A stretch of DNA of 35,342 nt, from positions 1 through 35,342 of the forward strand of contig CALVWV010000018.1 of NCBI GenBank assembly GCA_944368065.1, in the 5' to 3' direction. Below the pieces are notes generated by a model. The model did not search any database and was not told where the DNA came from. It saw only the letters and a program-made list of their open reading frames with translations. Numbering within the stretch: position 1 is the first letter of the stretch; each line of letters begins with the position of its first letter. Below are positions 1 through 13,682 of the stretch, piece by piece. This DNA is from an uncultured Clostridia bacterium. GTDB taxonomy: Bacteria; Bacillota; Clostridia; Christensenellales; Borkfalkiaceae. The translations under genes and the position numbers were made by a program.

Positions 1-26
1 GGGTTCGAGTCCCTGAAGGTGCACCA
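1..26 (+). tRNA. tRNA 3' end (partial)
   Basis: The first 26 bases have the form of a tRNA 3' end: part of the T stem (GGG), a TTCGAGT loop, the returning stem CCCTG, a seven-base acceptor strand AAGGTGC, discriminator A and an encoded CCA. The rest of the tRNA lies upstream of the window, so the anticodon cannot be read. A GCACCTT/AAGGTGC acceptor would suit some arginine or leucine tRNAs, which is only a guess. The mobile element is inserted directly after it and leaves the tRNA end intact. Confidence 0.75.
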
Positions 27-28
27 AA
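18..28 (+). repeat. attL core of the integrated element
   Basis: GGTGCACCAAA here is repeated exactly at 9789-9799. The core contains the perfect 8-base palindrome GGTGCACC and overlaps the tRNA CCA end. Just inside it is a second inverted repeat, ACTCGT-C-ACGAGT at 50-62, a possible recombinase-binding arm (inference). Confidence 0.75.
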
Positions 29-108
29 GCAATATAATCCGAATTGTTTACTCGTCACGAGTGAGTGGTTCGGATTTATTGTTTATATTGAAGATTTGCA
101 ATAAAAAA

Positions 109-150
109 CGAGAGCTTGCGGATTTTACTCCGCAAGCTCTCGTGCCGTTT
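109..150. terminator. Strong bidirectional intrinsic terminator
   Basis: A perfect 14-bp stem (109-122 with 129-142) and a 6-base loop are followed by TGCCGTTTTTA on the plus strand and by GTTTTTTAT on the minus strand. It ends the minus-strand relaxase unit. In the circular form of the element it would also sit five bases after the predicted integrase stop at 102-104. Confidence 0.85.
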
Positions 151-208
151 TTATCGGTTTCTAACGGCAAACCGTTTCGTTTCCGCCCTCAATGGCGGTA
201 TCCCTGTG

Positions 209-400
209 TTAATCAATGGGATCATTCTTATTTAATTTTTTATTAAGTTGTAATTTTTGCCTTTCGGCTTTCCATTCGGCAAACTCGCGCTGACCTTCTT
301 CGGTGGCGAAAAATGCCTGAATAGTGGGTAGTAATGCTCTTGCAAGGGAATCGATCTCAAAATCGGGAATCCCTGTGTTGTTCTTGCGCTTTCTCGTAAT
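209..400 (-). CDS. Small hypothetical protein downstream of the relaxase (63 aa, non-ATG start)
   Basis: This frame reads as a soluble helical protein: it contains IPDFEIDSLARALLPTIQAF and EEGQREFAEWKAERQ and ends NKNDPID before TAA. No ATG lies in frame. The best start is ATT at 398-400, preceded by AGGAG (404-408) with a four-base spacer, so either a rare start codon is used or the 5' end is broken. A longer ATG-initiated frame (232-474) overlaps it, but its low-complexity, proline-rich tail is less protein-like. The family is not recognised. Its place between the relaxase and the element end would fit an accessory factor such as a recombination directionality factor, but nothing in the sequence shows that. 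Confidence 0.5.
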   Translation of the reverse strand: MTRKRKNNTGIPDFEIDSLARALLPTIQAFFATEEGQREFAEWKAERQKLQLNKKLNKNDPID

Positions 401-481
401 ATTGCTCCTAAGATTTTATTCGTTGTCAACTTATCTATAAGTCCTCCTTTCCGCATATCGCGGACTGATTTCATTCTGCCA

Positions 482-582
482 TTATCCCCGTAGTGGGCTA
501 ACTATTTCATCAATATCAATCGGCTGCTTAAATTTGCCGTATTATGGTAAGCTCTGCGGGTGGCTCTGCCCTTATGCCAACG
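482..582 (-). pseudogene. Decayed small ORF after the relaxase gene
   Basis: Two protein-like segments lie in adjacent frames on the minus strand. RWHKGRATRRAYHN runs from 582 to about 541 in one frame, then YGKFKQPIDIDEIVSPLRG follows in another to the TAA at 482-484. A one-base shift near 538-543 would join them. There is no start codon. This looks like the end of a gene broken by frameshift or deletion; the family is not recognised. Confidence 0.3.
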
Positions 583-600
583 TCAGCATAAAGTCAAATA

Positions 601-1638
601 CTAATACTTGAAGTTGCCTGTGGATTTTACTCTCGGCTTGGGCGTGGGATGCATAAGCTCGTTGTACGCTTCGGGATTTGTTCTCTCTAATTCTCTGAGC
701 TTGTCAAGAGCTTTCTTGCCCGCCTCGTTGCTGCGCTCGGCTTGGTCGGCGCGTTTAGCTTCCCGTAACGTTTCGGTCATAGCAACGTCAAGCCGCTTGG
801 AAAGATCGGCGTTCTCCTGCTTCAGCTTTGCGTTCTCTACCCGAAGAGAAGTGATGACGGAAGTCTTGCCCACAACGGGGATAGGACAGGTTGCGGCGTC
901 CTTTACTTCGGATAAATCGTCAACCTCTTTTGTGAGCGTTTCCTTCTGTGTGGACAAGCTCTCAACTTCCTTTTCGGTATTACGCTTTTCCGCTTTAACG
1001 TTTGCCAAACCCTGTTCGGCTTCGACACAAGCTACGGTAATTTCGGCGGCTTTTTCTTCCGCCATTTTTACCTTGTATTCAGCCACGTCGAGGTGCTTTG
1101 TCTTGCTTCCTTTTTCTCCGCGCTTCAAACCCCAATGCTTGCCGACTTGCTCGTAAATATCTGTCTGCAATTTCCTTAACGCAACCCTGTCAAAAAGGTG
1201 TTTACAGCAAAGCCTATGTCCCTGATAGATTGGAACCATATTAAGGTGCATGTGTGGTGTCGTTTCGTCCAAGTGGACGACTGCGCCGACAATGTTTTCC
1301 TCGCCGTATCTTTCCGCAAAGAAGCGGTAGCATTCCCGAAAATATTCCTGTATATGTTCGGGACGCATTCCCTTAAACCATTCCGGACTTGCGGTTATAA
1401 CCCAACTGCTTAACAGCACGGAATCCTTTTTAATTCTTGCGCCGACTTCCTTAACTCTTTGCTTGATGTAGGTTAGGTAGGATTGTCCACGCTCAACGAA
1501 GCGGATATTATTGCCCGTGCGAGAATGGTCTATATTCTTGTTAGCGCCGTTGTACTGTTCGTCGCGCTCGTTTTCTTTCTCTACGGGCGGAATACCGTCG
1601 TGTTTTATTTTCTTCTCATTGCAAATTATGTAGCTCAA
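601..1638 (-). CDS. mobV: MobV-family relaxase (Pre/Mob plasmid mobilization protein)
   Basis: A 345-aa relaxase expected to nick oriT and pilot the single strand during mobilization by a helper conjugation system. The family's three-histidine metal motif is present as HLDETTPHMH at residues 122-131, and the N-terminal motif as NIDHSRT at 35-41. Residues about 190-325 form a long charged coiled coil, as in MobM-like proteins. The start is TTG at 1636-1638, preceded by GGAGG seven bases upstream. It is read toward the left attachment site, and its candidate oriT lies about 190 bp upstream. Somewhat shorter than typical plasmid Mob proteins, but the catalytic half is intact. Confidence 0.9.
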   Translation of the reverse strand: MSYIICNEKKIKHDGIPPVEKENERDEQYNGANKNIDHSRTGNNIRFVERGQSYLTYIKQRVKEVGARIKKDSVLLSSWVITASPEWFKGMRPEHIQEYFRECYRFFAERYGEENIVGAVVHLDETTPHMHLNMVPIYQGHRLCCKHLFDRVALRKLQTDIYEQVGKHWGLKRGEKGSKTKHLDVAEYKVKMAEEKAAEITVACVEAEQGLANVKAEKRNTEKEVESLSTQKETLTKEVDDLSEVKDAATCPIPVVGKTSVITSLRVENAKLKQENADLSKRLDVAMTETLREAKRADQAERSNEAGKKALDKLRELERTNPEAYNELMHPTPKPRVKSTGNFKY

Positions 1639-1685
1639 ATTATTTCCTCCAAAATTTTGTTTTTGTTCAGTGGATAAAAGTTCTC

Positions 1686-1794
1686 ACACGGCGCAAGGGT
1701 AACGCCGTGTTCGGTCACCGCTCGCGCGAGCATATGCGCTCGCTCACCTCGTGGGAACGCGACAGCGCACTGTGCTGTCGCGAGAACTTCCCAC
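1686..1794. repeat. Cluster of hairpins upstream of mobV
   Basis: Three consecutive inverted repeats lie between the relaxase start and the oriT palindrome: ACACGGCG/CGCCGTGT at 1686-1710, GCGAGC/GCTCGC at 1726-1743, and CGCGACAGC/GCTGTCGCG at 1758-1782 flanked by an outer GTGGGAA/TTCCCAC arm at 1751-1757 and 1788-1794. Such density suggests a structured transfer or single-strand conversion region. The overlapping open frame 1715-1936 on the minus strand is probably a by-product. Confidence 0.55.
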
Positions 1795-1826
1795 TCGCCC
1801 TCGGCAGAGCGCACACCTTGCTTTCA

Positions 1827-1846
1827 AGGTATAGTGCGCTATACCT
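1827..1846 (+). other. oriT: Candidate oriT (MobV/pMV158-type palindrome)
   Basis: The sequence AGGTATAGTGCGCTATACCT is an 8-bp inverted repeat around TGCG. It resembles the pMV158 oriT core, whose TATAGTGTG-TTATA palindrome is nicked by MobM after TAGTGTG. By analogy the nick would fall between 1838 and 1839 (TAGTGCG/CTA) on the plus strand. Position upstream of a MobV relaxase supports the call. Strand choice is less certain because the stem is palindromic. Confidence 0.65.
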
Positions 1847-2367
1847 CGTCGCGCAAAACTGCGCTCCGAGGTTATAGGATAAATCCCATAACCAATATCG
1901 CTTCGTTTGCGCTCCTCTTCCCAAAAAATCTTGCAAGCAATCTTTTTCGGGATACCCTGTTGTTTGGTTAGATCCTGCCGGCAGCCATTTCCACTTAATT
2001 TTGCTTTCCGTTAAAGTCTTATTTGCTTTCCGTTTGTTTGCCGTTTAAGGCGGTCTGATTGTCATAAACTTTTACCTCCGATTGCATATTTTTTATATCT
2101 TATCCACGCAGAAAAGGGTGGAACAGATACTGAAAAAAAGACGACAAAAAAGCCGCTGATACTCGTAACGTAATCACCGACTTTAACCGTGTTTAGCAAC
2201 TTTTCATTGCTCTATGTTGGTTAGACATTCTATATGGTTGTATGAAAAAACTTAGTTCATATTTAAACTCAGATTACATAAAAAACTGTACAACAAAATA
2301 AACCCTCAACATTATCCGACTTTTGCATCCTCACAGGAATCTCGGATAACTCCGGCTTACTTTGAAT

Positions 2368-2392
2368 ATTGTTGTAAAAATTGTACAACAAT
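2368..2392. repeat. Inverted repeat ATTGTTGTA-7-TACAACAAT
   Basis: A perfect 9-bp inverted repeat with a 7-base A/T-rich spacer. Its right arm repeats a sequence found about 95 bp upstream (TGTACAACAA at 2287-2296). The form suits a dimeric repressor site; a hairpin role is also possible. Confidence 0.4.
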
Positions 2393-2398
2393 AAAAGC

Positions 2399-2531
2399 CT
2401 ATCTCCGCTCACGAATTTTGCGTATAACTAAAAAATCTACGCTCTTATCGTAAGCTAAGGCACGGGCGACCATATCGCCCAAAATCTTCTGCATCATACA
2501 GACTAATTACGTTATCATCTGCCGCAGAACT
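2399..2531 (-). pseudogene. Frameshifted small protein remnant
   Basis: Minus-strand segments in two frames join into a plausible protein: ADDNVISLYDAE (2531 to about 2487) and then ILGDMVARALAYDKSVDF through to a TAG at 2399-2401. Removing one G near 2485 would fuse them. No ribosome site or start codon is evident, so this is most likely a degraded gene of the element. Family not recognised. Confidence 0.35.
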
Positions 2532-2646
2532 CTACTACCTCAAAAGGGTACAATGCCACTCATTACAATATCATGGCACACTATGCATTTTATCACAATA
2601 AAAATAAGAAGTCAATAGAAAATTAAACATTTGTTTGCTAAATTTT

Positions 2647-2676
2647 AGGGAGTTTTGTAGAATGACAAAACTCCCT
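2647..2676. terminator. Hairpin downstream of the ABC permease
   Basis: A perfect 12-bp stem AGGGAGTTTTGT/ACAAAACTCCCT with a six-base loop, 16 bases past the permease stop. The trailing U tract on the minus strand is weak, but the arms are A/T-rich at their inner ends. Probable terminator or mRNA-stabilising hairpin of the cargo operon. Confidence 0.6.
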
Positions 2677-2691
2677 ATTTGCGATATATTT

Positions 2692-5034
2692 CTATTCACC
2701 GACAAGCAAATTACGCGGTGCAATCTTTTTGACTTTGAGAGAGAGCAGACAGGCAAAAGCAAATGCGAACAAAATCAGTCCGATACCTGCTATGACGCTG
2801 AATAGTACAGGCGGTGCAAACGTACACTTAACTATCCCCATAGAGCTTAAAAACAGCGACATAAGCGGGTTTATAATCAGGCAACTTATTATCAGTCCGA
2901 TTACGGTAGAAAGAATAATCGCAGGCATAAACGAAAGCGCAGTTTGTAAAACAAGTTGCTTTGTGGTAAAACCGAGCGATTTCATAACACCGTAATCGCG
3001 CATCTTGTTGTTGAGCATAGTTCGAACAAGTAGATATAACACAAAACAAATTATTATTACCGATAGCACAAGTATGGCAACAACTATAATCGTCATAAGA
3101 TTAACATAAACGCTACCTGCACTTTCAACCGTTGCTAAAACATTTATAACTGCGTTTATATTGCCAGGGAACAAATCTTTCATTTCTTCGTTGAAAGCGT
3201 CAATGTCGGTATCTTGCGAAAGATTGATATAATAAGTTGCGTTTTGAAGCGTGCCTAACCGTTCATAGCCTTGCCTTGTCAAAAGGCAATCCCTGCCGAG
3301 ATTATTTGTAATTTGAGTAAATCCGCTTATAAGATATTTTTCGGTTTTACCGTTCACCGTAATTTCGATTTCATTGCCTACCTTTAAGCCATTTTCTCTT
3401 GCGTACTTTGCGGCAACGGCGATTTCGTTATCGTATTTGGGAAATCTGCCTTGAAACACTACGGACTGATTGTTTACGTTTTCAAAATCGTCCGAAAGAG
3501 TTGCCATAAGCTCTGCGCCGCCTACGTGCGATAAGTTCAATGAATTGTAAAGGTAAACTTTTTCTACACGTTTGTCGTTATTTAACTTTTCTATAAAATC
3601 GTCTTCGACTTCGCATTGTACATTGATTGCGCTATCTGCCGTTTCGCCTACGATTAAATTCAAAAAGGGCGACATATCGGCGATGACATTTTCCGTCATC
3701 AGCCCCGAAAACACAACGATAAGCGACAGCACAAGCATTGTAATACAAACCGTTATATTATGCTTAACACCCGAAAGCGTAGTTTTGAGAGCAAGAGCAA
3801 GATTTAAGGGCGCTTTCGTCTTTTCGAGCGGAATGCGGTTTTTCTTGAAATTGTGCGTTTGTATCCCCGAGCGCAGGGCGAGTATAGGCTCTATCTTTTT
3901 AATTTTGCGAGCGGCAAGATATACGGCAAGTGCAACAGTTCCGCCCAAAACCAAAAGAGAAATCAGTATCGGCAACGGCAAAAAATGAATTGCATAAGGT
4001 ATTCCCGTCTGCGCTATCATCATTGCGTTTACCGCAGGGAATAGACAATAAGATAACCCTGCACCGACAATCGCCGTAATTAAAGTCAACCCTAAAAATT
4101 GTAATAAAAGCGAACAGATGAGTTGTTTTGACGTATAACCAACGGCTTTCAGCGCGCCGAGATTTTTCATATTGACTTGAATGTAATTGATAATGTTCGA
4201 TACCAATACCACGACGGCAATCAGTAAAACAAAGAACGCCATAGCCGCCATTACTGCCGAACAGATACCCTGTGAAATATAGCGCGACTGAGATACTATA
4301 TCGTAACAGTTGCTTGCCATACGGGTATTCGGGAAGCGTTCGGAAACGATTGCTTTCAGCGACGATTCATAATTGAGATTAGCCGATTTATCGTGCAAAC
4401 GTATCGAACAAAGAGCGGTTTCGGGCGCAAGCCCGCTTGCTTCAAGTTCGGCATATTTATCTGCCGTAAGTATGATTTGAGTTAAGGCGCAGTTATGAGA
4501 GCCTAACATTACGCTATTGAAAAAGCCGCAAATCGTGTAGGTTACGGGATGGCTGCCAATTGATACCTCTATTGTTTTACCTATCGTATAATCATTCGAT
4601 TTATATAGCATAGGTAAATATATACCGCTTGTCAGGTCGCTGTCTTCGACGATTTCGGATCTACCTATTGTGCGTGTGATAGCCGTTTGCCTATCCATAA
4701 AAACAAACTCACTATTCATCATTCCGCCGTTATAGGGAAATGTGCCGACCATGTGCATACTTTTATCCAAACGATACTCTTTAACTTTTGTGTCGTTTGC
4801 AAGCATCTGCGCTAAAAATTCTTTTACGCTACCGTCGCTGTCGTCAACGGCAAGCGTAACGTGTTCGGCGTTGAGTTTGTCGTGGTATCTGTCAAAGTTA
4901 GCGCGGTAATCCATAGATAGCATAAGCCAGAGATTGAACAGTAACGACGCAAGCAATATAAGCACGACAATAGCGACGGTCTGTCCTTTAGCTTTCCGCA
5001 TATTAGAGCGGGCAATCAAAAATAACTTTTTCAT
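2692..5034 (-). CDS. ABC transporter permease with two FtsX-type domains
   Basis: A 780-aa membrane protein. An N-terminal segment at about residues 18-40 is followed by a MacB-like extracytoplasmic domain to about 255, three helices at about 258-375 (first FtsX domain), another helix at about 420-440, a second extracytoplasmic region, and three final helices at about 665-770. That gives eight helices in a duplicated 1+3 arrangement. This fits MacB/LolC-type permeases that move peptides, antibiotics or lipoproteins rather than the ten-helix BceB type. It starts one base after the ATPase stop, so the two are translationally coupled. With the kinase and regulator upstream it is probably an inducible exporter; the substrate cannot be told. 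Confidence 0.85.
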   Translation of the reverse strand: MKKLFLIARSNMRKAKGQTVAIVVLILLASLLFNLWLMLSMDYRANFDRYHDKLNAEHVTLAVDDSDGSVKEFLAQMLANDTKVKEYRLDKSMHMVGTFPYNGGMMNSEFVFMDRQTAITRTIGRSEIVEDSDLTSGIYLPMLYKSNDYTIGKTIEVSIGSHPVTYTICGFFNSVMLGSHNCALTQIILTADKYAELEASGLAPETALCSIRLHDKSANLNYESSLKAIVSERFPNTRMASNCYDIVSQSRYISQGICSAVMAAMAFFVLLIAVVVLVSNIINYIQVNMKNLGALKAVGYTSKQLICSLLLQFLGLTLITAIVGAGLSYCLFPAVNAMMIAQTGIPYAIHFLPLPILISLLVLGGTVALAVYLAARKIKKIEPILALRSGIQTHNFKKNRIPLEKTKAPLNLALALKTTLSGVKHNITVCITMLVLSLIVVFSGLMTENVIADMSPFLNLIVGETADSAINVQCEVEDDFIEKLNNDKRVEKVYLYNSLNLSHVGGAELMATLSDDFENVNNQSVVFQGRFPKYDNEIAVAAKYARENGLKVGNEIEITVNGKTEKYLISGFTQITNNLGRDCLLTRQGYERLGTLQNATYYINLSQDTDIDAFNEEMKDLFPGNINAVINVLATVESAGSVYVNLMTIIVVAILVLSVIIICFVLYLLVRTMLNNKMRDYGVMKSLGFTTKQLVLQTALSFMPAIILSTVIGLIISCLIINPLMSLFLSSMGIVKCTFAPPVLFSVIAGIGLILFAFAFACLLSLKVKKIAPRNLLVGE

Positions 5035-5035
5035 T

Positions 5036-5794
5036 TTACCACCCCATATCTTTAAGGAATGCGGAAAGTTTTTCGTGCCTTGCGGTATCGCCGTGCGTGT
5101 ATTTGCCCAAATCGCACTCGCCTAAAATAACGCCGTCTTTTAAGTATAAAATACGGTTGCCGCGACGAGCAGAGCGAATATCGTGCGTTACCATAACTAC
5201 GCTTTGCCCCTGCTCGTTGAATTTAGTAAGCATATCGAGAACGTCAAGCCCCGTTTGAGAATTGAGCGCACCCGTAGGCTCATCGGCAAAAAGTATATCG
5301 GGATTATTTATCAGTGCGCGGACTATACCTACGCGCTGTGCTTCGCCGCCGGATATTTGCGTGGGGAACTTTTTTTGAGTATCTTCCGAAATATCGACAG
5401 CCGCAAATAATTCTTTTGCCTTTGCAACGAGCGCTTTTTTGTCCTTGTTTACAAGTAATCCTGCGGAAAGTACGTTATCCATAACCGACATTCCGTCAAT
5501 AAGATATATTTGTTGGAATACAAATCCGCAATGGTCGCGACGGAATACGGCAAGTCCGTCTTGCGATAAATCGGTAATAACTTTGTCGCCGAAAGTAATT
5601 TTACCGAGCGACGGCGTGTCCATACCCGATAGGGCGTACAAAAGCGTAGATTTCCCCGCGCCGCTTGCGCCCATTATAACGGTAAAGTCGCCTTGATACA
5701 GTTCCAAATCGATGTTTTTGAGAACGTGTTGTTGACTTCCGCCGTTAGAGAAAGTCTTGCTAAGGTTTTCTGTTTTCAATAAAATTTGTTCCAT
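5036..5794 (-). CDS. ABC transporter ATP-binding protein (MacB/LolD-like)
   Basis: A 252-aa ATPase that would power the adjacent FtsX-type permease. Visible motifs are Walker A GASGAGKST (about residues 42-50), the Q-loop region FVFQQIYLI, signature SGGEAQR, Walker B ILFADEPTGAL with catalytic E, and the H-loop VMVTHD. The start ATG has AGGAG at 5805-5809 about ten bases upstream. Length and motif order are typical of the MacB/LolD/Bce group. A direct-repeat operator and promoter lie immediately upstream, between it and the kinase gene. Confidence 0.93.
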   Translation of the reverse strand: MEQILLKTENLSKTFSNGGSQQHVLKNIDLELYQGDFTVIMGASGAGKSTLLYALSGMDTPSLGKITFGDKVITDLSQDGLAVFRRDHCGFVFQQIYLIDGMSVMDNVLSAGLLVNKDKKALVAKAKELFAAVDISEDTQKKFPTQISGGEAQRVGIVRALINNPDILFADEPTGALNSQTGLDVLDMLTKFNEQGQSVVMVTHDIRSARRGNRILYLKDGVILGECDLGKYTHGDTARHEKLSAFLKDMGW

Positions 5795-5818
5795 ATAAAA
5801 TCTCCTTTTAACACGTTC

Positions 5819-5875
5819 ATTTTAGCTTTTATAATTCTTAAATGTCTTTAACGATTTCTTAAATATTTCTTAAAT
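5819..5875 (-). promoter_or_regulatory. Promoter and direct-repeat operator of the ABC genes
   Basis: On the plus strand TTCTTAAAT occurs at 5835, 5856 and 5867, with a degenerate member GTCTTTAAC at 5844, giving four half-sites spaced about 9-12 bp. A TAAAAT -10 element on the minus strand lies at 5819-5824. Tandem half-sites about 11 bp apart are the usual OmpR-family binding pattern. The same pair (a TCTTTAA site, then CTTAAAT 12 bp further) occurs at the regulator's own promoter. The last half-site overlaps the kinase stop codon. Confidence 0.7.
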
Positions 5876-7135
5876 CTTACCGCCTAAAGGCACGGAAACG
5901 GTTACTTTCAGTCCGTGTACTCCGTTTTCGATAATCAATTCGCCGTGCATTTCTTTCATAAAATAATCGGATATATAAAGTCCCAAGCCTGCGCCTTCCG
6001 TATTTTTGGCATTGCTTCCGCGCTTAAATTTTTCTTTGAGTACGGGTAGTTCTTCCGCTTCCACGCCGCCGCCGAAGTCTTCGATGGTTATATCGATATG
6101 CTTGTCTGTTCTATGCAAGGAAACAGTAATTTCGGTATTTGCGTATTTGTAAGAATTTGCGAATATATTATCGAACACCTGTTGCAACCTGAGTGCGTCG
6201 GCGAATACCAAGCAATCGGGCATATCGGGAATGATGGAACGGCGAAGATAATCAGCGTTTTCGAGCATGGTTTTCACTTGCTTGCTCTCTATGTTGGTAG
6301 GCGTTACGGTAAGTTGTTGCAATTCTTCGAGCGTTGCCGTAAACAGATTTGTAACAAGTTTATTTATTTGATCGGCTTTGCCCATGATTTGAGTATAGTT
6401 TGCTTTGTCTTTTTCGGTTGTCGCAACCGCAAGCCCGACTTCGGAAACTGCTTTAATACTTGCAACCGGCGTTTTAATATCGTGAGATAGTTTTGCAACA
6501 AGTTCCTTTTTACTCTGTTGTGCTTGCGCTTCGGCAAGACGGGCTTTTTTTAGTTCCGAACGCATAATGTCAAAACTTTCGGTAAACGCACCGAAAAGAT
6601 TATGTCTATCCATTGCAAGCGGCATATCGAGATTGCCGCCGGCAACTCGTTCGGCAAAGCCTTTTAATTTGCGGAACGGTCTGATAACGGATAAGTATAA
6701 ATAAACAGTGTACCCTATACAAATAAAAATTTGAATAACGATAGCAACCGACAATACGATAACAGCCGTTTGCTTTTGATATTGTAAAGTTTGCGTTCCG
6801 TCGTTGTAGATAATGATTTTCCCAACTTGCGTTTTGTCGATAGTAATATCGAGTATTGTATCTCGGTGTGTGATTGCTACATTTATACTTTCGGATAACC
6901 CCGATTGCGTCTTATAAAGAAGATTGCCGCTATTATCCAAAACAACGTAGTTGAGAGCGGTAGTATTTCTATGTTCTTCCATATTATTAAAATCGTCGGT
7001 TACGGTCTGTACGATTTCATTAACAGCAACGGCGTCTTGCGATAAATCGGGTGTCTGAACAGCGAATATAATAAGAGCGATTATTTCGGCAATAAGTAGG
7101 AGAATAGTTCCGAATAGAAAAATTTTACTTTTCAT
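5870..7135 (-). CDS. Sensor histidine kinase
   Basis: A 421-aa membrane kinase, partner of the overlapping response regulator. Helix 1 (about 5-27) and helix 2 (about 123-147) flank an extracellular domain of about 95 residues, so it has a real sensor domain, unlike the loop-less BceS kinases. HAMP follows, then the HisKA motif KLSHDIKTPVASIK with phospho-accepting H218. The ATPase domain has an N box (NIFANSYKYAN), EDFGGG and GAGLGLYI. Its start overlaps the regulator's stop by four bases. Likely senses the compound exported by the neighbouring ABC system (inference). Confidence 0.92.
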   Translation of the reverse strand: MKSKIFLFGTILLLIAEIIALIIFAVQTPDLSQDAVAVNEIVQTVTDDFNNMEEHRNTTALNYVVLDNSGNLLYKTQSGLSESINVAITHRDTILDITIDKTQVGKIIIYNDGTQTLQYQKQTAVIVLSVAIVIQIFICIGYTVYLYLSVIRPFRKLKGFAERVAGGNLDMPLAMDRHNLFGAFTESFDIMRSELKKARLAEAQAQQSKKELVAKLSHDIKTPVASIKAVSEVGLAVATTEKDKANYTQIMGKADQINKLVTNLFTATLEELQQLTVTPTNIESKQVKTMLENADYLRRSIIPDMPDCLVFADALRLQQVFDNIFANSYKYANTEITVSLHRTDKHIDITIEDFGGGVEAEELPVLKEKFKRGSNAKNTEGAGLGLYISDYFMKEMHGELIIENGVHGLKVTVSVPLGGKI

Positions 7136-7812
7136 TGATTTTCTCCTGTAAACTTATATCCGTCGCCCCAAACGGTAACGATATATTTCGGCTCATTGGG
7201 GTTTTGCTCTATTGCTTCGCGCAATCTTCTAATATGAACGTTGAGCGTTCCGTCGCCCGTAAATTTATCTTCCCAAACTTTCTCAAACAGTTCCCGCTTC
7301 GATATGACTTTGCCTTTATTTTCAATCAAATACAATAAAAGTCTGAATTCAAGAGCGGTCAGTTTTGTGGGAACGCCGTTTACGCAAACTTCTTTCGATT
7401 GAGTATTCACGGTTAAATATCCATCTGAATAATTAGTTTGAACGGCTTGTCCGAAACGCTTTAATACCGCTTTTACCTTTGCAAGCAATACGCCGAGCGA
7501 ATACGGTTTTTGAATATAATCGTCGCCGCCGATATTGAGCGCAACTATTTTGTCGTCGTCGCTGCCCCTCGCGGAAATAAAAAGAATGGGAATGTTCGTA
7601 GTTTCCCGTAATTCTTTGCATAAATCAAAGCCGTTACCGTCGCCCAAGTTTATATCGAGCAAGATAAGTTCCGTTGAATTGTTCTGAAAAAATCTACGGC
7701 AATCTTCCGCAGAATAGCGGGCGGCGGCTGTTACGCCGAAAAGATTAAAATATTCTGCCGTGCTATCGGCAAGCACTTTTTCGTCATCAATAATTAAACA
7801 ATTATATTTCAT
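7132..7812 (-). CDS. OmpR/PhoB-family response regulator
   Basis: A 226-aa regulator. Its receiver domain (1-120) has the acidic pair DD at 9-10, phospho-acceptor D53 (LLDINLGDG), a conserved Ser in ISARG and K in IQKPYS. The C-terminal winged helix (about 130-224) has the family features ALEFRLLLYL, RELFEKVWED and VHIRRLREAI. It is the first gene of the four-gene cargo operon. Matching direct repeats at its own promoter and at the ABC promoter suggest it controls both. Confidence 0.94.
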   Translation of the reverse strand: MKYNCLIIDDEKVLADSTAEYFNLFGVTAAARYSAEDCRRFFQNNSTELILLDINLGDGNGFDLCKELRETTNIPILFISARGSDDDKIVALNIGGDDYIQKPYSLGVLLAKVKAVLKRFGQAVQTNYSDGYLTVNTQSKEVCVNGVPTKLTALEFRLLLYLIENKGKVISKRELFEKVWEDKFTGDGTLNVHIRRLREAIEQNPNEPKYIVTVWGDGYKFTGENQ

Positions 7813-7829
7813 AGTTTATCTCCATACTA

Positions 7830-7874
7830 ATTATACCATTTTTCAAGGCAGAAATCTTTAAAAATTCCTTAAAT
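7830..7874 (-). promoter_or_regulatory. Promoter and operator of the response regulator operon
   Basis: A TATAAT -10 element lies on the minus strand at 7830-7835 with no good -35 hexamer, as expected for an activated promoter. Where the -35 would be, the plus strand has ATCTTTAAA (7854) and TCCTTAAAT (7866), 12 bp apart. This is the same pair, at nearly the same distance from the -10, as upstream of the ABC genes. Supports positive autoregulation. Confidence 0.65.
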
Positions 7875-7904
7875 TTTTTTCTCAACGAAAATGTTTGTTT
7901 GACA

Positions 7905-7933
7905 TTGACTTTAATGTGAATTTATGTTATAAT
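7905..7933 (+). promoter_or_regulatory. Sigma-A promoter of the XRE-integrase operon
   Basis: TTGACT (7905-7910), a 17-base spacer and TATAAT (7928-7933) with an extended -10 TG. Transcription would start near 7940. That argues against an ATG at 7945 and favours the one at 7963. The promoter diverges from the cargo operon. Confidence 0.85.
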
Positions 7934-7962
7934 GCGTGTAAATTATGGAATTGAGGTTTTTA

Positions 7963-8328
7963 ATGGATAAAAAAATTGTAGGTGAACGCTTAAAGGCTTT
8001 ACGGGAAGGCGTACACCTTTCGCAAGCCAAACTTGCAGCTATATTTGACGGTGTTGACCAACCTTCTATCTACCGTTACGAAAAAGGGACAACTTCCCCT
8101 TCTTTTAATGTGCTTATACAGTATGCCGATTATTTCGACGTATCGCTTGACTATATTTTCGGGCGGTGCGAAAAGCCGCAAGGCAGGTTGTACGATTTTC
8201 AACCGAAAGTGTGGAAAGACAACAAACAAATGCAAGACTTGATAGAGATGTGTTTCGATCCGAACTCTCCTGCAAATGCACAGTTGAAAGAAACGCTTTT
8301 ACGCCTTATGGGGGAACAACAGAAATGA
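7963..8328 (+). CDS. XRE-family transcriptional regulator
   Basis: A 121-aa DNA-binding protein with an N-terminal HTH_3 domain (about residues 6-62): KALREGVHLSQAKLAA, then QPSIYRYEKGTTSPSFNVL, then DYFDVSLDYIFGR. The ATG at 7963 is chosen because TTGAGG lies six bases upstream; the earlier in-frame ATG at 7945 almost coincides with the transcription start. Its TGA overlaps the integrase ATG (ATGA), so the two are co-translated. Probably the switch that controls integrase expression and excision, as in many integrative elements (inference). Confidence 0.9.
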   Translation: MDKKIVGERLKALREGVHLSQAKLAAIFDGVDQPSIYRYEKGTTSPSFNVLIQYADYFDVSLDYIFGRCEKPQGRLYDFQPKVWKDNKQMQDLIEMCFDPNSPANAQLKETLLRLMGEQQK

Positions 8329-9818
8329 AAGCAGTAATTTATGCAAGATACAGTTCGGATAATCAGACCGAAGCGTCCATCGAGGGGCAGCTTCGCGAAT
8401 GTATGGAATATGCCGAGCGTACGCGAATTGACGTCATAGGCAATTACATAGACCGTGCTTTGACTGCAAAGACAGATAACCGTCCTGAATTTCAGCGCAT
8501 GATTAAGGACAGCTATAAACATGCCTTCGATATTATTATCGTTTGGAAGTTGGACAGGTTTTCCCGTAACAGATATGACAGCGCTTACTACAAAGCGTTG
8601 CTCAAAAAGAACGGCGTTAAAGTTGTATCCGCAAAAGAAACGATTGCCGAAGGCTCGGAAGGCATATTGCTTGAGGCGGTTTTGGAAGGCTATGCCGAGT
8701 TTTATTCGGCAGAACTTTCCGAAAAGGTTGTGCGCGGTATGACCGAGAATGTACTCAAAGGCAGAAACAACGGCGGACAGGTTACTTTCGGCTATGAGAT
8801 AGATGATGATATGTATTTTCATCCTCATCCTACCACCGCGCCTATCGTTGAAGAAATCTTTACAATGTACGACGACGGAAAAACCATTAAGCAGATAGTT
8901 GATTATTTGGAAGAGAAGAATATCAAAACAATTCGCGGCGGCAAGATGACGATAAATATCGTTCAGCGTATGCTCTCTAACCGCCGTTATATAGGCGAAT
9001 ACAAGTTCAGAGATACGGTTATTCCCGACGGTATTCCTGCGCTCGTCAATAAAGATTTGTTTGAAAGAGTGCAGCAGAAACTCGCCAAGAATAAAAAAGC
9101 GCCGGCAAGACGCAAGGCGGAAGATGATTATCTTTTGACATTAAAACTTTTTTGCGGGAAATGCGGGGCGCATATGTTCGGTGAAAGCGGTATGGGAACT
9201 TCAAAGGTTTATCGCTACTACAAATGCGCTAAAACAAAGAAGGTGCATCTGTGCGATAAAAAGCCCGTCCGCAAGGAATGGATGGAAGATTTAGCCGTAA
9301 AGAAAGCGCTTGAAATACTCAACAACGAAGATTTAATTTCCGTGCTTGTAGAAAGGATATATGCTTTACAAGGGGAAGAAAATCCGAGAATACCAAGATT
9401 AAAGGAACAACTTGCCGATATTGAAAAGCGCATAGGCAATATTATGTCCGCCATTGAGCAAGGCATAATCACCGATACGACAAAGGACAGACTTTCACAA
9501 CTTGAAACGCAAAAGAAAGAGATTGAAATCACCTTGTTACAGGAACGAATTAAAAAGCCCTTCCTCACGAAAGAGCAGATACAATTCGGGATTGAGCGAT
9601 ATAAGAAATTAGATCTGTCCACGCTTGAAGGAAAACGGCGTTTGATTGAAGCTTTTATCAATGCAATCTACGTCTACGACGACAAGATAGTGTTTACCTT
9701 CAATTACAAGGACGGAACGCAGACCGTGTCAATGTCAGAGCTCACTACAATGCCAGCCACGGGCGACAATTCGGATATGAATTGCATTGGTGCACCAAAA
9801 TCCAGCAGAACGAAATAG
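8325..9818 (+). CDS. int: Large serine recombinase (element integrase)
   Basis: A 497-aa site-specific recombinase. The resolvase catalytic domain begins VIYARYSSDNQ, with the nucleophile Ser at 10 or 11, and has KLDRFSRNRYD. A recombinase domain follows (about 160-260), then a zinc ribbon with CGKCGAHMFG and paired cysteines YYKC and LCDKK, a coiled coil (about 355-410) and a C-terminal tail. The ATG at 8325 overlaps the regulator stop; upstream in-frame codons belong to the XRE gene in another frame. The attachment core lies in codons 489-492, so the last residues (SSRTK) are encoded by chromosomal DNA containing a transcription terminator. Confidence 0.94.
   Translation: MKAVIYARYSSDNQTEASIEGQLRECMEYAERTRIDVIGNYIDRALTAKTDNRPEFQRMIKDSYKHAFDIIIVWKLDRFSRNRYDSAYYKALLKKNGVKVVSAKETIAEGSEGILLEAVLEGYAEFYSAELSEKVVRGMTENVLKGRNNGGQVTFGYEIDDDMYFHPHPTTAPIVEEIFTMYDDGKTIKQIVDYLEEKNIKTIRGGKMTINIVQRMLSNRRYIGEYKFRDTVIPDGIPALVNKDLFERVQQKLAKNKKAPARRKAEDDYLLTLKLFCGKCGAHMFGESGMGTSKVYRYYKCAKTKKVHLCDKKPVRKEWMEDLAVKKALEILNNEDLISVLVERIYALQGEENPRIPRLKEQLADIEKRIGNIMSAIEQGIITDTTKDRLSQLETQKKEIEITLLQERIKKPFLTKEQIQFGIERYKKLDLSTLEGKRRLIEAFINAIYVYDDKIVFTFNYKDGTQTVSMSELTTMPATGDNSDMNCIGAPKSSRTK
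9789..9799 (+). repeat. attR core inside the integrase 3' end
   Basis: An exact copy of GGTGCACCAAA, read in frame as Gly-Ala-Pro-Lys near the integrase C-terminus. The DNA on its right is the terminator expected downstream of the interrupted tRNA gene. Confidence 0.75.
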
Positions 9819-9835
9819 TTCGGCTGGATTTTTTT
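9799..9835 (+). terminator. Intrinsic terminator displaced from the tRNA gene
   Basis: Stem AATCCAGC/GCTGGATT with an inner GAAC/GTTC stem separated by one A-G mismatch, then a run of seven T. It starts right after the attR core, as a tRNA terminator would. It overlaps the last codons and stop of the integrase gene, so it now ends integrase transcription. Confidence 0.85.
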
Positions 9836-9908
9836 CTTGCAACTTATACAAGGACTCGAGGGGAGGCGGCAAGTTTACTTGCGCAGGTCGGAAGTCTCTA
9901 CTGACGAC

Positions 9909-9932
9909 AAAACAGCGGCCACCCGCTGTTTT
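9909..9932 (+). terminator. Perfect 10-bp hairpin
   Basis: AAAACAGCGG/CCGCTGTTTT around CCAC. It resembles a terminator with T's inside the stem. It lies between the two tRNA-3'-like copies, in a stretch (9836-10170) with no recognisable gene. Confidence 0.5.
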
Positions 9933-9954
9933 CCGTGCGCGCCGCTCAAGGCGA

Positions 9955-9977
9955 GAGTCCCTGAAAGTGCACCAAAA
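9955..9977 (+). repeat. Second tRNA-3'-like attachment remnant
   Basis: The 22 bases beginning GAGTCCCTGAAAGTGCACCA match positions 7-28 at 21 of 22 places, extending into the tRNA T loop, and end in CCAAAA. No tRNA body precedes it. It looks like the right junction of an earlier insertion at the same tRNA, or a decayed tRNA copy. Confidence 0.6.
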
Positions 9978-9978
9978 A

Positions 9979-10012
9979 AACAGCAGAGCGCTTTAAGCGT
10001 TCTGCTGTTTTT
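9979..10012 (+). terminator. Intrinsic terminator after the remnant attachment site
   Basis: AACAGCAGAGCG pairs with the segment ending TCTGCTGTT (one G-U pair, seven-base loop), followed by six T. It sits directly after the CCA-like sequence, so it may be the tRNA gene's original terminator. The stretch from here to 10170 has no visible gene. Confidence 0.8.
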
Positions 10013-10170
10013 TACTTTTAAACCTACTCAATACCACCCCTTACCAAAAAGCAAGCAGCGCAACGTGCGCATAACAAAACTCAAACTTACTCAATAAACA
10101 ACACCCAGCCAACACTTAGAAAGGCAAACCTTATAACAAGCAGAACTGTACATAAACCTTCAATCCACTA

Positions 10171-13017: not shown

Positions 13018-13682
13018 TTCAGTTCCGCCTTATAACCAAGCCCGCGCACAGAAACAATAGCGACGTCGCTTTGCAAAAGTTTTTCACGAAGTTTATTTAT
13101 GTGCACGTCAACCGTCCGTTCCAGACTTTCAGAATCCAAGCCCCACACTTCGTCCAGCAGCTGCGCCCTGGAAAATATGCGCCCCTGCGAAGAAAGAAGG
13201 GTAAACAGCAATAAAAATTCTTTCTTTGTTGTATCCACGGTAATGCCGTTAACTTTTAAAGTTTTTGAAACAAAATCGAGCTGAGTATTTCCCGCTTGTA
13301 TTTTTTGTTTTGAAACCCGACCGTAACGCCGCAGCAACGCCCTTACGCGCAGCTCCAATTCTTCAAAATCCACGGGCTTTGTCATATAATCGTCCGCGCC
13401 GCCTTCAAAACTTTTTCTTTTATCAGCGATAGCGCTCAATGCCGTAAGCATAAGCACAGGCAGGTCGGCATCGGAAGATTTTATCGCCTGCGTAAGCTGA
13501 TTTCCGTCAAGCGCGGGCATCATAACGTCGGCAATAACAAGGTCTACATCCTTTTGCTCCAGCAAAGACAGCGCCTCGTTGCCGTTACCGCATTCATAAA
13601 CAGCAAACCCACGCATTTCAAGATTACGTTTTATAAGTTTTCTGAGCGGAACTTCATCTTCCGCCAATAGAATATGAAACAT
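13014..13682 (-). CDS. OmpR/PhoB-family response regulator
   Basis: A 222-aa regulator. The receiver domain has acidic residues EDE (8-10), phospho-acceptor D52 (VIADVMMP), MLTALS and K in DYMTKPVD. The winged-helix output domain has KKEFLLLFTL, RAQLLDEVWG and VDVHINKLREKL. The start is the ATG at 13682, with AAGGGGAA just upstream; a longer in-frame start at 13715 adds 11 residues foreign to the family. Middle gene of the membrane protein/regulator/kinase operon. Confidence 0.93.
   Translation of the reverse strand: MFHILLAEDEVPLRKLIKRNLEMRGFAVYECGNGNEALSLLEQKDVDLVIADVMMPALDGNQLTQAIKSSDADLPVLMLTALSAIADKRKSFEGGADDYMTKPVDFEELELRVRALLRRYGRVSKQKIQAGNTQLDFVSKTLKVNGITVDTTKKEFLLLFTLLSSQGRIFSRAQLLDEVWGLDSESLERTVDVHINKLREKLLQSDVAIVSVRGLGYKAELK

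Follow-up and report, generated by a model that had tools for sequence, protein, structure and literature searches.

Within the window (the whole stretch of 35,342 nucleotides analysed here), the 3' end of a tRNA-Lys gene is followed by an element of about 9.8 kb whose last gene encodes a large serine integrase, and the attachment site of the element lies inside that gene. The in-frame site and the layout of the tails at both ends are confirmed by what is read in the sequence, which also supports the crossover, the conservation of the tail, its replacement by host-encoded residues and the presence of a hairpin. The best explanation, and a likely one, is an integrative mobilizable-type element of a gut bacterium that inserts into the ends of tRNA genes. 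Its attP would lie within the integrase gene and have arms resembling a T-loop; integration would exchange the tail of the integrase and leave a hairpin behind the tRNA. The family comprises at least 80 genome loci, plus phage-like contigs. A domain search of seven open reading frames found both an integrase and a MobV relaxase in the element:

601..1638, minus strand: MobV-family relaxase (Pfam Mob_Pre; NCBIfam MobV, 177.6 bits against a cut-off of 100)
2692..7812, minus strand: cargo genes for an FtsX-type permease, an ABC ATPase, a sensor kinase and a response regulator (Pfam)
7963..8328, plus strand: HTH repressor-like gene (HTH_3), overlapping the start of the integrase gene
8325..9818, plus strand: large serine integrase in its integrated (chimeric) form, 497 residues, the last of them host-encoded (Pfam domains; translation)

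The integrase has Resolvase (PF00239), Recombinase (PF07508) and Zn_ribbon_recom (PF13408) domains, all above the Pfam cut-offs. Family scores within the cargo operon (2692-7812) lie under the curated cut-offs. The two ends of the element are proposed to be made up as follows:

1..26, plus strand: the target gene's 3' end (tRNA-Lys), with T-arm, acceptor and CCA, forming the left half of attL (26-nt identity to a complete tRNA)
4..9, plus strand: TTCGAG of the T-loop, at positions 18-13 counted from the crossover; putative attB motif for the zinc domain (match to the P arm at a 5-bp shift)
21..22, plus strand: crossover dinucleotide GC, left copy, in attL (halves of L036 and L046; relatives' tRNA-Arg ends GCGCGCCA)
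27..104, plus strand: native 3' end of the integrase gene, now detached: tail KQYNPNCLLVTSEWFGFIVYIEDLQ and its stop codon (open frame, pN/pS, contiguous viral genes; tblastn matches in divergent left ends)
36..76, plus strand: 19-pair hairpin with a T-rich 3' flank, likely the replacement terminator of the tRNA when integrated (terminator-like listing, fold, covariation)
37..43, plus strand: P' arm ATCCGAA of attP, positions 16-22 (palindromic with the P arm, 84%, 22 loci)
108..143, plus strand: terminator-like hairpin of 15 pairs that follows the native stop and is detected on both strands
9770..9776, plus strand: TTCGGAT, the P arm of attP, within the integrase gene at positions 23-17 counted from the crossover (arm comparison, 22 loci)
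9792..9793, plus strand: crossover dinucleotide GC, right copy, in attR (same comparison of halves; L036 diverges at 9800)
9794..9836, plus strand: host tRNA-Lys flank, stem AATCCAGC..GCTGGATT followed by a T-run; encodes the chimeric tail (flank 89% identical, C5:62110-62258)

An 11-bp core, GGTGCACCAAA, is present at 18-28 and again at 9789-9799. Coordinates and translation bear out the original prediction that this core lies in frame inside the integrase gene, and that the integrated gene (8325-9818) encodes 497 residues with the C-terminus GAPK-SSRTK. At the left end, the integrase frame, entered at the CCA of 24-26, reads PKQYNPNCLLVTSEWFGFIVYIEDLQ and reaches a stop at 102-104. In the circle, reconstructed here from sequence, GGTGC would be fused in frame to ACCAAAGCAATATAATCC, and the predicted protein would have 492 + 24 = 516 residues, GAPK-QYNPNCLLVTSEWFGFIVYIEDLQ; the frame was claimed to be open over just this length, and the 24-residue tail does read open. 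A terminator had been placed after the native stop, at 109-142, and the 15-pair hairpin is found there. The further claim, that integration replaces both the tail of the integrase and its terminator, agrees with the sequence, and as an interpretation it is supported. In place of the native terminator, the stem at 9794..9836 may now end the integrase transcript; this stem was read by eye, with one mismatch, and the consensus hairpin scan did not list it. As to the rejoining of the core, the location stands, but the exchange can be narrowed to two base pairs, GC, rather than the whole 11. The crossover, the targeting of the T-loop, the arrangement across the family and the double use of the tail DNA as a hairpin go beyond what had been predicted.

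The target is recognizable from related DNA. A complete tRNA of this genome (L002) has a 3' end identical to bases 1-26, and homologous tRNAs in L037 and L045 are tRNA-Lys(ctt) according to ARAGORN, which finds no complete tRNA within the window itself. From 9797 onward, the sequence is 89% identical over 147 nt to DNA that follows another tRNA-Lys 3' end of this genome (C5:62110-62258), and the right flank is for this reason taken to be the host flank of a tRNA. A search of 9700-10100 against Rfam gave only matches below threshold. The same element, 99.9% identical over 9802 bp, lies behind a tRNA-Arg in a contig of Candidatus Borkfalkia avistercoris (L036), where the match covers 1-9800 of the window and then ends. 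The sequence is GCGC-ACCA at the left end and GTGC-GCCA at the right end in both L036 and L046, and a similar tRNA-Arg of two relatives ends GCGCGCCA (2 of 61 genomes matched). Thus the base before GC is inherited with the left halves; the discriminator base, with the right halves. Since these T/C and A/G differences flank the GC, the exchange is bracketed to that dinucleotide (21-22 / 9792-9793), which by inference from the sequence is a 2-bp crossover at the centre of both attP and attB. Recombination would exchange the two base pairs just inside the discriminator base of the tRNA genes. The discriminator base of the tRNA-Arg in L036 (1626-1702), like that in the host of L046, was apparently turned from G to A by integration, because the right half of attP supplies the last four bases of the tRNA.

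A longer direct repeat, 7-28 / 9955-9976, is identical at 21 of 22 positions. If it marked the ends of the element, the C-terminus of the integrase would never change. The repeat exceeds the 11-bp core in length, and a hairpin with a T-run directly follows 9976. However, the 99.9% identical element in L036 ceases to match at 9800, short of the outer copy, and for this reason the outer repeat is rejected as the junction. Positions 9797-9943 of the window, moreover, are 89% identical to the tRNA-Lys flank elsewhere in the genome, and it is the inner site that the P and P' arms flank. This reading is barely credible.

The arms of the proposed attP form a near-palindrome, with the P arm in codons NSD, the central GC in GAP and the P' arm in NPN. 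Over 22 loci, P and P' are complementary at 84% in one register and at no more than 36% in the others. Over the same loci (which include L139, whose integrase core was poorly placed and whose P arm is unreliable), positions 11-19 of the tRNA strand agree best with the P arm when shifted by 5 bp (62%, with other shifts at 34% or less). According to excerpts of PMC3783163, the zinc-domain motif lies at 16-24 in attP and at 11-19 in attB, and the 5-bp shift found here matches those positions. On the right half-site, the host flank gave no T-loop-like shift signal in the 22 loci. The element thus seems to recognize the T-loop of tRNAs, and such recognition would account for near-identical copies in different tRNAs (Lys, Arg and Leu).

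These copies differ in how their integrases end. In the window, behind tRNA-Lys, 6 residues follow GAP, and in the near-identical element behind tRNA-Arg (L036), 137 do. The elements of L047 and L048 (99.85% identical over 3266 bp) lie in tRNA-Leu and tRNA-Lys, those of L081 and L083 (99.95% over 6105 bp) in two tRNA-Leu, and each pair has different host tails. Over the 67 of 81 genome loci with the core placed (the other 14 were dropped, the core not being found by pattern), 0 to 189 residues follow the core, with a median of 17. Most of these tails look unrelated, as expected for host flank, though not all 67 are host-made: that of L049 is the native tail of a tandem array, and that of L051 looks like one. 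The residues at the core track the target, being GAP in 35 of the 67 and otherwise GSP, TPP, ASP, GEP and others.

The original prediction would be contradicted by native homologues ending near residue 488, yet in the cases listed, viral homologues with intact attP run 18-34 residues past the core, and two genome contigs follow integrated relatives up to the core and then continue into a tail. One of these, L332, is 98.1% identical over 476 nt to the end of the L049 integrase and then reads on into DPNQILVMSEWFGFYFL; the other, L333, is 99.4% identical over 154 nt to L012 and reads on into a tail with its arm out of frame. A pattern for intact attP that makes no demand on coding (GTTCGGAT-N18-CCA-N10-ATCCGAAC) has 68 matches in viral contig stretches, and a slightly shorter one has matches in 2 of 300 genomes. 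Genes homologous to the query integrases contain 64 of the 70 matches. With the frame at each match taken as the longest upstream open frame and duplicate tails removed, there are 49 distinct integrase cases, none of which meets a stop in the first 15 codons beyond the centre; 45 share the codon phase of the window and 4 have a different one. Six of the 70 matches were not scored as integrases, three of them (L300, L304, L318) with integrase-like tails and too little upstream sequence. A protein search gave 104 distinct viral integrases; 41 of them have a near-palindrome 55-112 nt before the stop, and in 15 the arms near the end of the gene pair at 9/9 (three of these being other hairpins), compared with at most 8/9 in background windows. 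The contiguous viral tails share a recurring hydrophobic pattern. Tail ends vary among the relatives listed (YL, YLKQ, SDLQ, KHRVE); that of the window is YIEDLQ.

Some relatives are less simple. In L049 and its copy L011, the integrase runs on into NPNQILVTSEWFGFTFYL; this is a tandem insertion (L049 7486-11452), with the left-end tail of the following element forming the end of one integrase, and a further left-end-like hairpin follows the second integrase. Integrases of L051 (3678-3746) and L016 have another type of tail (NYPNT...VRVVF), probably native tails in a different register. The integrase of L037 used as a query against viral sequences gave no matches. No terminal repeat was found in the phage records MT83xxxx (L137-L144), whose ends are mostly of the integrated type; one of them, L139, has a left end behind a tRNA. 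Counting against the best explanation is L145, the record of a circular Subdoligranulum plasmid, in which the integrase homologue ends GAPKTVSSEAVF and in which no P' arm or tRNA was found. That end (13480-13640) precedes a terminator, and neither the integrated nor the tailed state fits it cleanly.

Is the detached tail in fact coding? The alternative is that the left end is conserved solely as DNA and RNA structure, that is, as an attP arm and a terminator hairpin for the tRNA. The tail does fold very strongly, its base pairs are kept, and the P' arm and the hairpin arm span the NPN and FGF codons, as this alternative would have it. It leaves much unaccounted for, however. In all 22 left ends behind tRNAs, the integrase frame runs for 23 codons or more without a stop, while the other frames do so in 5 and in none; these left ends (21 loci and the window, each assigned to the nearest upstream tRNA on the same strand) include near-identical pairs and are not independent. 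In a comparison set of 27 other tRNA 3' ends, the three frames are open in 12, 9 and 10. The ratio pN/pS in the integrase frame of left-end tails is 0.64 in class A, 0.37 in class B and 0.25 in the pair L088/L093, each time the lowest of the three frames; in a fourth set, consisting of one pair with few changes, it is not the lowest. Contiguous viral tails give 0.55, 0.37 and 0.39, again lowest in the integrase frame each time, with one further single pair an exception. The spacing to the hairpin arm falls into seven classes (56 to 80), yet of the 29 frame-0 sequences that have a good arm, 27 agree in the value of this spacing modulo 3. In a separate scan for exact arms, 25 of 30 sites share one register modulo 3, and of the rest, those at L011:2950 and L333:150, where the arm is out of frame, look like real exceptions and the other three like chance. 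The tail of L088/L093 extends about 30 codons beyond the hairpin, at the low pN/pS already given, and contiguous tailed genes exist in viral contigs. A profile made from phage tails places left-end tails in its top 40 fragments, at weak E-values (best 0.08, window 9.6), which is suggestive. Given the open frames, pN/pS, the register of the arm and the contiguous viral genes, hairpin conservation was rejected as the sole explanation, and the structural alternative as a whole is very unlikely.

That the tail encodes protein does not prevent its DNA from serving also as a hairpin. The fold of the window's tail RNA has a z of -6.2, and 12 of 13 folded tails have z of -3.6 or below; L055 is weaker (z -2.0, with 8 of 200 shuffles equally good). 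In seven class A tails, 89.5% of pairs are kept. Their covariation score, 0.248, is reached by 10 of 500 shuffles, and slid versions score 0.008-0.068, but double-sided pair changes alone are not significant (195 of 500 shuffles reach the same), so covariation in the hairpin is modest. Because the tRNA's own terminator ends up 9.8 kb away after integration, the hairpin is probably the element's substitute for it, and we infer that the detached hairpin ends the tRNA transcript in place of the native terminator that is lost. In the circle, translation through the tail would keep the hairpin open. The role is not general, because few phage tails whose centre lies in frame 1 have a well-matched arm (at least 7/8 in 2 of 21).

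What might the exchange of tails accomplish? In the free circle, the integrase gene would read through attP into its native tail of 24 residues. Upon integration, the tail would stay behind the tRNA at a distance of 9.8 kb, and the integrase would end in residues encoded by the host flank. Loss of the tail may alter the activity of the integrase, most simply if the tailed form is the one that integrates. We favour such a self-limiting switch, though at less than even odds. In its full form, attP would serve three ends at once, as recombination site, as coding sequence for a conserved tail and as terminator hairpin for the tRNA, and the tail would be a sensor of state: the tailed enzyme would integrate into T-loop/CCA ends, integration would strip the tail, a second attP x attB reaction would be disfavoured, excision would be left to a partner factor, and translating ribosomes would hold the hairpin open. 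So complete a scheme is put forward tentatively.

A serious rival keeps the same architecture and supposes that the tail is tolerated rather than regulatory: a site at the end of the gene would hold enzyme and attP together as a module, and both forms would work alike. It is a real possibility, if short of an even chance. Host tails of 0-189 residues sit on otherwise intact genes, near-identical pairs of elements in two sites imply that chimeric forms are not rapidly purged, and tails differ widely in length and sequence. A merely tolerated tail sits less well with pN/pS values that in most sets are under 1 and smaller in the integrase frame than in the other two, and with the hydrophobic pattern that recurs in contiguous viral tails, though overlap with attP and the hairpin could cause part of both. 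Or perhaps the switch acts on stability, the circular tail being a degradation signal that integration removes. This has a formal parallel in the attP inside a repressor gene (PMC8092301, as excerpted), and the tails are hydrophobic. But the window's tail ends YIEDLQ, the ends of relatives vary with no shared ssrA-like end visible, and the sequences of host tails are arbitrary; this version is unlikely.

The enzyme itself is best classed, on its domains, as a variant large serine integrase. With those of the LI/A118, phiC31, Bxb1 and TP901-1 type (solved relatives being TP901-1 and A118 integrase), it shares the Resolvase, Recombinase and zinc-ribbon domains, a 2-bp crossover and the 5-bp phase between attP and attB arms. 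Unlike the usual members, it has attP within the integrase frame, targets tRNA 3' ends at the T-loop and has its C-terminal tail swapped. Among tyrosine integrases, there are known examples of an overlap between the 3' end and attP.

Self-disrupting integrases, in the excerpts of PMC8371274, are confined to archaea and are tyrosine enzymes cut through the protein. The archaeal suicidal (SSV-type) integrases described there are alike in having attP inside the integrase gene, as found here, in targeting tRNA and in the alteration of the gene. However, the domains found here are those of a serine recombinase rather than the tyrosine recombinase fold, the host is bacterial, and only the C-terminal tail is exchanged, leaving the catalytic and DNA-binding domains whole. 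The family departs from a description limited to archaea and tyrosine enzymes. In mycobacteriophages with integration-dependent immunity, attP lies in frame within the repressor gene, and the virion and prophage products differ at the C-terminus (PMC8092301, in part). The in-frame attP that alters a C-terminus is common to both, but there it is the repressor that changes, a degradation tag that is removed and a tyrosine integrase that acts; here the site lies in the integrase gene, not in the repressor-like gene (7963-8328), and there is no evident tag. Among Firmicutes, serine-integrase IMEs (Tn4451 and others) are similar in having a relaxase, a single serine integrase and very short direct repeats, but according to the portion of PMC5704250 consulted, they insert within genes, and tRNA 3' ends are targets of tyrosine integrases, whereas here a serine integrase targets tRNA 3' ends. 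A literature search, with most subscription papers outside its scope, returned no description, in Faecalibacterium, clostridia or elsewhere, of a serine integrase with attP in its own gene.

If the circular gene is the working one, every integrated copy is mis-ended relative to it, in a family of this size. Annotations based on integrated copies would then give the integrase a C-terminus encoded by the host, a point of importance in prospecting for enzymes. Because enzymes with native and with host tails occur as natural pairs, what sets the directionality of serine integrases also becomes directly testable.

The DNA to the right of the element has features of its own. At 9955-10013 lies a second tRNA-Lys-like 3' end (21 of 22 positions shared with 7-28), followed by a separate hairpin and T-run; it may be left over from an earlier insertion. 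The stretch 9850-9960 contains a repeat that occurs in several places in genomes of the same genus and, in its own genome, outside tRNA flanks; 9797-9985 as a query matched 23 of 61 same-genus genomes at E of 0.001 or below. Elsewhere in the genome, at C5:62258-73741 (L001, L002), a complete tRNA-Lys is followed by an apparent integrase-family gene, with a tRNA-Lys 3' half 11.5 kb away, apparently another element in a tRNA-Lys gene.
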